DNA from: an uncultured Ignavibacteria bacterium | Lineage (GTDB): Bacteria; Bacteroidota; Ignavibacteria; Ch128b | DNA: 64,000 nt | Assembly: GCA_937944105.1 (NCBI GenBank) | Contig: CALDZP010000007.1 | Span: 1-64,000, forward strand | Direction of reading: 5' to 3' | Shown: piece by piece, positions 7,026 through 39,187 of the stretch | How positions within the stretch are numbered: the stretch's first letter is position 1 | How the letters are laid out: each line of letters begins with the position of its first letter | Program-made: the position numbers and the translations under genes | Notes under the pieces: model-generated | Database searches by the model: none | What the model saw: only the letters and a program-made list of their open reading frames with translations | What the model was told of the DNA's origin: nothing

Positions 7026-7088
7026 TTAAAAGTAGCCGTAAGTGAAATAAAAATAAAAGTAAAATAAATCTACAAATCTAGAGTTCAT
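7026..7088 (-). CDS. Phe/Tyr-rich leader peptide of the aroF-aroC-tyrA attenuator
   Basis: A 20-codon frame starting ATG at 7088 and stopping with TAA at 7026-7028. Eleven of the 20 residues are Phe or Tyr, with the core LFYFYFYFTYGYF. An in-frame ATG two codons upstream (7094) would give 22 residues. Its stop abuts the antiterminator arm, and the terminator hairpin follows. This is the layout of amino-acid-sensing leader peptides such as pheL and trpL: stalling for charged tRNA-Phe or tRNA-Tyr would favour antitermination. No strong Shine-Dalgarno is visible before the ATG, only an A-rich stretch, as is common in this lineage. The role is inferred; the codons and pairings are seen directly. 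Confidence 0.85.
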   Translation of the reverse strand: MNSRFVDLFYFYFYFTYGYF

Positions 7089-7142
7089 TTGCATTTTTTT
7101 TTATATTTAATTGTTCATTTTTAAGTAATAATTTAATTATCA

Positions 7143-7159: not shown

Positions 7160-7993
7160 ATGGTTACTAAAAAATTTTATTTTCAAGGTGAACACGGTGC
7201 TTTTTCAGAAGAAGCAGGCTTAAAATTTTTTGGTAAAAAAGCATTTGGTATTCCCGTTAAGGACTTTGAAGATGTAGTTATTAGTGTTCTAAAGGAAAGG
7301 AATGCATATGGTATTCTACCGATTGAAAATTCTACAATTGGTAGCATTCATTCTAACTATGACTTACTTTTAAAATTTAATGTCTTTATTGTAGGTGAAG
7401 TAAATTTAATCGTAAAGCAACATTTAATTGCATCAAAAAAGTCAAAAATAAGTGGTATAAAAAAAATAATTTCACATCCTGCCGCACTCCAACAATGTCA
7501 AAATTTTATTAAAAAACTAAAAAATGTAAAAATTGAAATAAGTTACGATACTGCAGGTAGTGTAAAACTTATAAAAGAAAATGGATTAAATGATACTGCA
7601 GCTATTTCATCTGAAATTTCTGCAAAGATTTATGGTATGAAAATTTTGAAAAAGAATATACAGGATACAAATACAAACATTACTCGATTTATTCTAATTT
7701 CAAATAAAAGTGTAAAGCCAAAAAAAAATACCAAAACTTCCATAGTTTTTACATTAAGAAACTTTCCTGGTGCATTATTTAGAGCATTGAGTGTTTTTGC
7801 CTTAAGAGATATAGATCTTACAAAAATAGAATCTCGTCCTATCCCTGATAAACCATTTGAATATTACTTTTATCTGGATTTTCGAGGTTCTATTCACGAT
7901 ATTAAAAGCATAAATGCGCTAAATAACTTACAAGAGATTTCAACATTTTTAAAGATTTTGGGATCATATGAAGAGGACCTAAATCAAAAATAA
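7160..7993 (+). CDS. pheA: Prephenate dehydratase with ACT domain (PheA)
   Basis: Converts prephenate to phenylpyruvate, the phenylalanine branch. Residues 1 to about 180 are the dehydratase domain, with FQGEHGAFSE, GILPIENSTIGS, HPAALQQC and the catalytic-loop motif TNITRF. The C-terminal 80 or so residues are an ACT domain with NFPGALFRALSVFA and IESRP, the Phe-binding signatures, so feedback inhibition by phenylalanine is expected. No chorismate mutase domain is present. A TTG at 7148 is a possible longer start, but the ATG at 7160 fits homologous N termini better. The gene is divergent from the attenuated aroF operon and so escapes that attenuator. Confidence 0.92.
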   Translation: MVTKKFYFQGEHGAFSEEAGLKFFGKKAFGIPVKDFEDVVISVLKERNAYGILPIENSTIGSIHSNYDLLLKFNVFIVGEVNLIVKQHLIASKKSKISGIKKIISHPAALQQCQNFIKKLKNVKIEISYDTAGSVKLIKENGLNDTAAISSEISAKIYGMKILKKNIQDTNTNITRFILISNKSVKPKKNTKTSIVFTLRNFPGALFRALSVFALRDIDLTKIESRPIPDKPFEYYFYLDFRGSIHDIKSINALNNLQEISTFLKILGSYEEDLNQK

Positions 7994-39012: not shown

Positions 39013-39085
39013 GGGGCTGTAGCTCAGTTGGGAGAGCACTTCGTTCGCAACGAAGGGGTCGAGGGTTCGAATCCCTTCAGCTCCA
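39013..39085 (+). tRNA. tRNA-Ala (anticodon CGC)
   Basis: A 73-nt cloverleaf. The acceptor stem is GGGGCTG with CAGCTCC, including the G3-U70 pair that specifies alanine. The D arm is GCTC-AGTTGGGA-GAGC, the anticodon arm CTTCG-TTCGCAA-CGAAG with anticodon CGC reading GCG, and the T arm carries TTCGAAT. The discriminator is A, and the CCA end is not fully encoded (the DNA continues ACTTTT). It is followed 5 bases later by the SRP RNA and is probably transcribed with it. Confidence 0.95.
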
Positions 39086-39090
39086 CTTTT

Positions 39091-39187
39091 GCCAGAAACA
39101 CTCGGCAGGAGTTTGCCCAACCCCGTCAGGTCCGAAAGGAAGCAGCGGTAAGCAAATTTCCTGGGTGAGTGTCTTCTGGCTTTTTTT
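39091..39187 (+). ncRNA. ffs: Signal recognition particle RNA, small bacterial (4.5S) type
   Basis: The conserved SRP domain IV core GTCAGGTCCGAAAGGAAGCA is present at 39125-39144, with its symmetric and asymmetric internal loops and GGAA-type tetraloop context. The ends GCCAGAAACACTC and GAGTGTCTTCTGGC pair to close a rod of about 90 nt (39091-39180). A run of seven T (39181-39187) follows as terminator. It binds Ffh and targets membrane proteins to the translocon. It probably comes off the tRNA-Ala transcript. The end is convergent with the L,D-transpeptidase gene. Confidence 0.95.

Follow-up and report, generated by a model that had tools for sequence, protein, structure and literature searches.

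Alternating Phe/Tyr codons and competing predicted hairpins point to a transcription attenuator upstream of aroF in an Ignavibacteria bacterium

The aroF locus and its leader frame

The DNA analysed here (the window) is a 64,000-nt stretch from the genome of an uncultured Ignavibacteria bacterium, in which a compact minus-strand operon, aroF-aroC::CM-tyrA, lies divergently from pheA (Table 1). Only 1 nt separates aroF from aroC::CM, and tyrA overlaps the aroC::CM stop codon. A preliminary description of the locus had named an aroF-aroC-tyrA operon, in which aroC is really a fusion of chorismate synthase and chorismate mutase. The operon covers entry into the pathway, the formation of chorismate and of prephenate, and the Tyr branch, and pheA takes prephenate towards Phe. 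The divergent pheA is a context gene and does not lie downstream of the attenuator proposed below.

Table 1 Features of the aroF leader region and its neighbours, with window coordinates.
Feature	Position	Strand	Sequence or description	Basis
pheA	7160-7993	plus	prephenate dehydratase with ACT domain	NF008865, PF00800, PF01842
Promoter-like site	7158-7130 (-35, 7158-7153; -10, 7135-7130)	minus	TTGATA-17-TAAATT	consensus scan
Leader peptide gene	7094-7026	minus	MQMNSRFVDLFYFYFYFTYGYF, 22 codons from first ATG, TAA stop	
Putative regulatory codons	7064-7044	minus	FYFYFYF, codons 11-17	sequence and geometry
Segment 1	7037-7031	minus	GGCUACU, last leader codons; pairs with 7023-7017 as predicted 1:2 protector hairpin	
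Segment 2, antiterminator 5' arm	7025-7011	minus	CCGGUAGUUAUCAGU	predicted fold, compensatory changes
Intrinsic terminator before aroF	7003-6969	minus	13-bp stem (7003-6991 with 6986-6974), 4-nt loop, T run	
Segment 3	6996-6982	minus	GCUGGUAACUGCCGG; pairs with segment 2 in the antiterminator and with segment 4 in the terminator	
Shine-Dalgarno-like site of aroF	6947-6941	minus	AGAGGAG	read from sequence
aroF	6934-5921	minus	DAHP synthase of type Ib carrying a ferredoxin-like domain; opening step of the shikimate pathway	NF006421, TIGR01361, PF18152
aroC::CM	5919-4576	minus	chorismate synthase with C-terminal chorismate mutase (AroQ type)	NF003793, PF01817
tyrA	4576-3860	minus	prephenate dehydrogenase	PF02153; best NCBIfam NF006409, under its cut-off

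Ahead of aroF lies a short open frame, which has a second in-frame ATG at 7088 that would give a 20-codon form and that resembles the ATGAAC start in the nearest relative. Phe and Tyr account for 11 codons in the 22-codon and in the 20-codon form alike, and the coordinates, strand, translation, F/Y count and FYFYFYF run given in the preliminary description all proved exact. We compared the composition of this frame with that of the 729 ATG frames of 12–45 codons in the window and found that only the two nested leader frames contained at least 50% F/Y codons, and likewise that only these two held a run of seven. At the background frequency of 11% F/Y codons in the window's long frames, at least 11 such codons out of 20 have a probability of P = 2e-6, which corresponds to about 0.002 expected over the 729 frames, and even five consecutive F/Y codons are found nowhere in window frames of at least 250 aa. 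A seven-codon F/Y run within an ATG frame appeared in 7 of 20,000 dinucleotide-preserving shuffles of the intergenic region, which is 75% A+T. These shuffles and the codon frequencies ruled out a chance frame arising from AT-richness.

The start of the leader frame is preceded by A-rich sequence with no clear Shine-Dalgarno motif, and aroF does have such a motif. Transcription of the leader would begin at the promoter-like site, which precedes the frame and lies immediately beyond the pheA start codon. Taken alone, the match of this site in the consensus scan is at chance level. A species of the same genus (G002) carries TTGATT-17-TAAATT at the corresponding place, with equal 17-nt spacing; a weaker promoter-like counterpart was found in a second relative (G003), and no site met the scan criteria in a third (G005).

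Elsewhere in the same genome, a second DAHP synthase heads an apparent aroB-aroDE-aroA-aroK shikimate operon, and no F/Y leader was found before it. No TrpE was recognised in this genome: the best match to the TrpE model looks like pabB, with a PabC-like gene after it and no Trp leader before it, and the sole TrpB-model match falls below the family cut-off. As no TrpE was recognised, the branch may serve this bacterium chiefly in the synthesis of Phe and Tyr. The genome, which is 99% complete, gave no match for hisG, leuA or ilvB, and hence offered no companion His, Leu or Ilv leaders to examine. Genes for shikimate, Phe and Tyr synthesis are thus accompanied by no hisG, leuA, ilvB or clear trpE, and the bacterium is likely auxotrophic for several amino acids. 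Elsewhere in the window (39013-39184, plus strand), a tRNA gene is followed by a bacterial small SRP RNA gene, the two being 4 nt apart.

Competing hairpins between the leader and aroF

The preliminary description had placed the frame before a terminator, and this was borne out by the single terminator-like site seen in the leader region, where 0.2 were expected from shuffles. The terminator hairpin is predicted at -24.7 kcal/mol (z = -5.4). We further found a predicted antiterminator, formed by segments 2 and 3 through 15 unbroken pairs with a stability of -23.0 kcal/mol (z = -6.2), a value reached by none of 200 shuffles. Segment 2 begins 0 nt after the leader stop codon (7028-7026). Because segment 3 is at once the core of the terminator and the partner of the antiterminator, the two hairpins are mutually exclusive, and the finding of the antiterminator makes the case for an attenuator much stronger. 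The 1:2 protector hairpin, predicted at -5.8 kcal/mol, is weak, and its form differs partly between species.

The edge of the ribosome footprint lies about 11 nt beyond the A-site codon. Taking this distance, a ribosome on the stop codon would cover approximately the first 11 of the 15 bases of segment 2, and stalls at codons 11–17 would leave segment 2 wholly free. When the ribosome was placed at the stop codon, the remaining free RNA was predicted to fold into the terminator with probability 1.0, and when it was placed six codons earlier, the RNA preceding segment 4 was predicted to fold as the 15-bp antiterminator. In equilibrium folds of the full leader the default state varied by species, and that of G002 formed the antiterminator even without a ribosome.

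Sequence and modelled folds together suggest that the leader region is very probably a ribosome-mediated attenuator of transcription, like trpL and pheL, that controls aroF-aroC::CM-tyrA. With charged tRNA-Phe and tRNA-Tyr plentiful, a ribosome translating the leader would reach the stop codon, where its footprint would cover most of segment 2; with segment 2 masked, segment 3 would pair with segment 4, and transcription would terminate before aroF. If either charged tRNA became scarce, the ribosome would stall within FYFYFYF, at least about 18 bases upstream of segment 2, and free segment 2 could then capture segment 3 in the 15-bp antiterminator before segment 4 exists, which would allow read-through into aroF.

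Terminators are common, and one situated between the divergent pheA and aroF might instead be a constitutive partial terminator or a remnant next to a chance frame. We consider this very unlikely, since the hairpin lies on the same strand as aroF and ahead of it, and the unbroken 15-bp competitor is conserved alongside. Searches with Rfam covariance models returned no family at the gathering threshold in the leader, Phe_leader included, and the T-box model gave no match. A T-box, a riboswitch or another known Rfam leader was accordingly set aside, as the gathering and relaxed searches yielded sub-threshold matches only, several of them over the terminator hairpin; NsiR1, for example, scored 24.1 bits, where 39 are required. 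Because no Rfam family reached its threshold, the leader appears to hold no T-box or known riboswitch.

Conservation of the leader-hairpin unit in the family

We compared six species of the family and found the orthologous aroF locus in four, namely the window's genome (G000), G002, G005 and G003. The leader-hairpin unit was present in all four. The counterpart leaders in G002, G005 and G003 read MNINSTFNRSFSFYFYFYFDSYS, MKSMTTKVTKYSIYFKGYFYFTLKL and MKQKKTIKITKYLFYFTGYFYFMLKH, respectively, and the frame of MKSMTTKVTKYSIYFKGYFYFTLKL could extend further upstream. The divergent pheA arrangement is the same in these three relatives as far as their available DNA extends, and the aroC::CM fusion is also found in G002 and G005.

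The preliminary description had proposed to look for the Phe/Tyr run in related genomes, and it is indeed conserved, with synonymous changes, in G002, G005 and G003. The F/Y-rich stretches of the four species read FYFYFYFTYGYF, FSFYFYFYFDSY, YSIYFKGYFYF and YLFYFTGYFYF, and at least two Phe and at least two Tyr codons are kept in each. Between G000 and G002, the codons for FYFYFYF differ by two synonymous changes and nothing else; between G005 and G003, the shared F/Y codons change synonymously and several other codons change amino acid. Third-base changes at aligned F/Y codons are synonymous. The stop triplet varies (TAA, TAG, TGA and TGA in G000, G002, G005 and G003, respectively), but its place is fixed, and the distance from the stop codon to the terminator stem is 23, 23, 24 and 23 nt in the four species.

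Conservation extends to both hairpins. The terminator is kept in all four species, with 92% of cells paired and with compensatory changes. In the antiterminator, three pairs have changed on both sides, and 88% of cells are paired, compared with 12–65% when the alignment is slid (four sequences); with these four sequences the covariation exceeds shuffle control (a) only modestly. The antiterminator of G003 is much weaker, at -7.5 kcal/mol.

These patterns bear on the possibility that the hairpins are real but answer to a sensor other than the leader peptide, with a protein, a metabolite or a tRNA (T-box-like) binding the RNA and the F/Y codons being a mere U-rich tract. UUU and UAU codons are what a U/A-rich tract would be expected to contain, and the leader's want of a clear Shine-Dalgarno motif points the same way. 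Set against this are the preserved start and stop, the variation of the stop triplet in a fixed place and the synonymous changes at F/Y codons, together with the covariance searches, which gave no Rfam match at threshold and no T-box, and the occurrence in other families of the class of F/Y or W leaders in otherwise dissimilar sequence. On this evidence we regard such an RNA-binding sensor as improbable.

The leader could also encode a small functional hydrophobic protein or act in trans, a role compatible with attenuation. It is aromatic-rich, and the action in trans proposed for peTrpL of Sinorhizobium (PMC7298713) offers a parallel. Outside the F/Y stretch, however, the peptide is poorly conserved even inside the family, unlike a functional protein, and we give this alternative very little weight. 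Attenuation through translation of the leader remains the reading we prefer.

Amino-acid inputs, known systems and parallel leaders

The preliminary description had taken the frame for a likely sensor of both Phe and Tyr. The conserved, mutually exclusive hairpins support an attenuator; that it responds to both amino acids is likely, a judgement we draw from its codons and operon. A leader reading two amino acids would suit this operon, which carries carbon from the pathway entry via chorismate to prephenate, the precursor common to Phe and Tyr. Alternatively, the same attenuator might in practice sense one amino acid, most likely Phe, with the other codons as passengers. This finds a parallel in AroR of Corynebacterium glutamicum, whose Phe-Tyr-Phe leader is reported to respond to limitation of Phe and not of Tyr (PMC11802643), and the earlier claim of dual sensing may reach slightly beyond the evidence. 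In the locus studied here, in contrast, Phe and Tyr codons alternate across the whole sensing stretch, with at least two of each in four species, and the operon supplies both amino acids and includes tyrA, whereas AroR is described with a single Phe-Tyr-Phe. We therefore consider a one-amino-acid sensor possible but rather unlikely.

AroR-aroF is the closest described case, and the mechanism itself is known from trpL and pheL. According to the work of Neshat et al. 2014 as reviewed in PMC11802643, AroR likewise is a Phe/Tyr leader before a DAHP synthase operon in which stalling raises transcription; it differs in being actinobacterial, in having a single F-Y-F in place of the alternating stretch and in its reported Phe-only response, the two leaders being compared here by description. 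E. coli pheL-pheA and pheST (PMC11802643) likewise combine a leader peptide, exclusive antiterminator and terminator hairpins and a charged-tRNA sensor, but their leaders hold Phe codons only, and the genes under their control are pheA or pheST; in the window, pheA points the other way and does not belong to the attenuated unit.

Leader-peptide systems had been known only from Proteobacteria and Actinobacteria until a 2010 survey added Firmicutes (PMC2965389). The preliminary description knew of no such control of a combined Phe/Tyr operon in the present lineage, and we too found no leader-peptide attenuator for Ignavibacteria in the openly accessible literature, but precedents do exist at the scale of the phylum. 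In Bacteroides thetaiotaomicron, table 7 of PMC1173090 lists among Merino's predictions a putative attenuator, of unstated kind, before pheA-hisHb-aroAIbeta::aroQ-tyrA. This operon, from the same wider phylum-level group, resembles that of the window in its type Ib DAHP synthase, chorismate mutase and tyrA; its mutase is fused to the DAHP synthase and not to AroC, pheA lies inside the operon, and the passages concerned describe no leader peptide. For Flavobacterium psychrophilum, a member of the wider Bacteroidota like the window's bacterium but of a distant class, leader-peptide attenuation of amino-acid operons has been proposed from transcript and structure data (PMC9723704), and the passage concerned names no Phe/Tyr aroF leader.

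Three things are new here: the lineage, a sensor of alternating codons for two amino acids ahead of a prephenate-committed operon, and the repeated use of such leaders in the class. The locus adds a well-supported leader-peptide attenuator for Ignavibacteria, whose leader gene would probably escape standard gene calling, and would account for the tuning of flow into prephenate in a bacterium with no recognised TrpE. If the two-input reading is true, a single leader regulates an operon dedicated to prephenate, from which Phe and Tyr both derive.

Parallel leaders were found in other families of the class. At least seven F, Y or W per 12 residues, followed by a terminator, occurred in 8 of 113 aroF upstream regions of the class and in none of five shuffled sets. 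Leaders before aroF in family f18 contain the aromatic stretches FYYYFYF, FYFYYFYF and YYYFYFF. In seven species of one genus (g28, family f16; L088, L171, L177, L178, L180, L183 and L201), the leader before aroF ends in FYAxYFAQWWRNHWA or a close form, combining Phe, Tyr and Trp codons plus one His; the frame is broken by a TGA in L171, and the genes downstream in L088 are aroF-tyrA. The WW codons of this genus lie within an inverted repeat, GCCCARTGGTGGCGCMACCAYTGGGC, which occurs at one place per genome, shows a compensatory change in L177 and has no T run after it. Trp leaders before trpE were found in one genome each of families f5 and f10 (L203 and L207), where they read NWAWWWYIYT and ATWFWWWHTEKY and are followed by terminators. 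No such leader was found in the aroF upstream region of Melioribacter (L192). The leader of L018 might just as well encode a small membrane protein, and the W/R-rich frames of L169 and L194 were set aside as GC-rich artefacts.

Leaders of different families are dissimilar outside the sensor codons, and those of the class may reflect repeated origin or fast turnover. We judge it fairly probable that the aroF leader is a two-input attenuator, in which either shortage stalls the ribosome, and that aromatic aroF leaders have evolved repeatedly in the class, including the genus that combines Phe, Tyr and Trp. With its clean alternation of codons, and with comparable leaders in other families, the locus offers a good natural case for studying how a single leader can read two amino acids or three, and at what rate new leaders originate.

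Several observations accompany these leaders. Family f18 has tandem duplicate aroF genes (L118, L119, L123, L126 and L143), and the first copy carries an F/Y leader in L118, L119, L143 and L144, the last being from the same genome as L126. A possible antiterminator arm lies inside the leader frame of these first copies, where a stretch further down looks able, as judged by eye, to pair with the terminator core. In other phyla, type Ib DAHP synthase genes are preceded by aromatic leaders, reading NFSYYFWYGYF in L030 (Chloroflexi) and AYYWWWRYYWFF in L066 (Desulfobacteraceae), and strong terminators follow in both.
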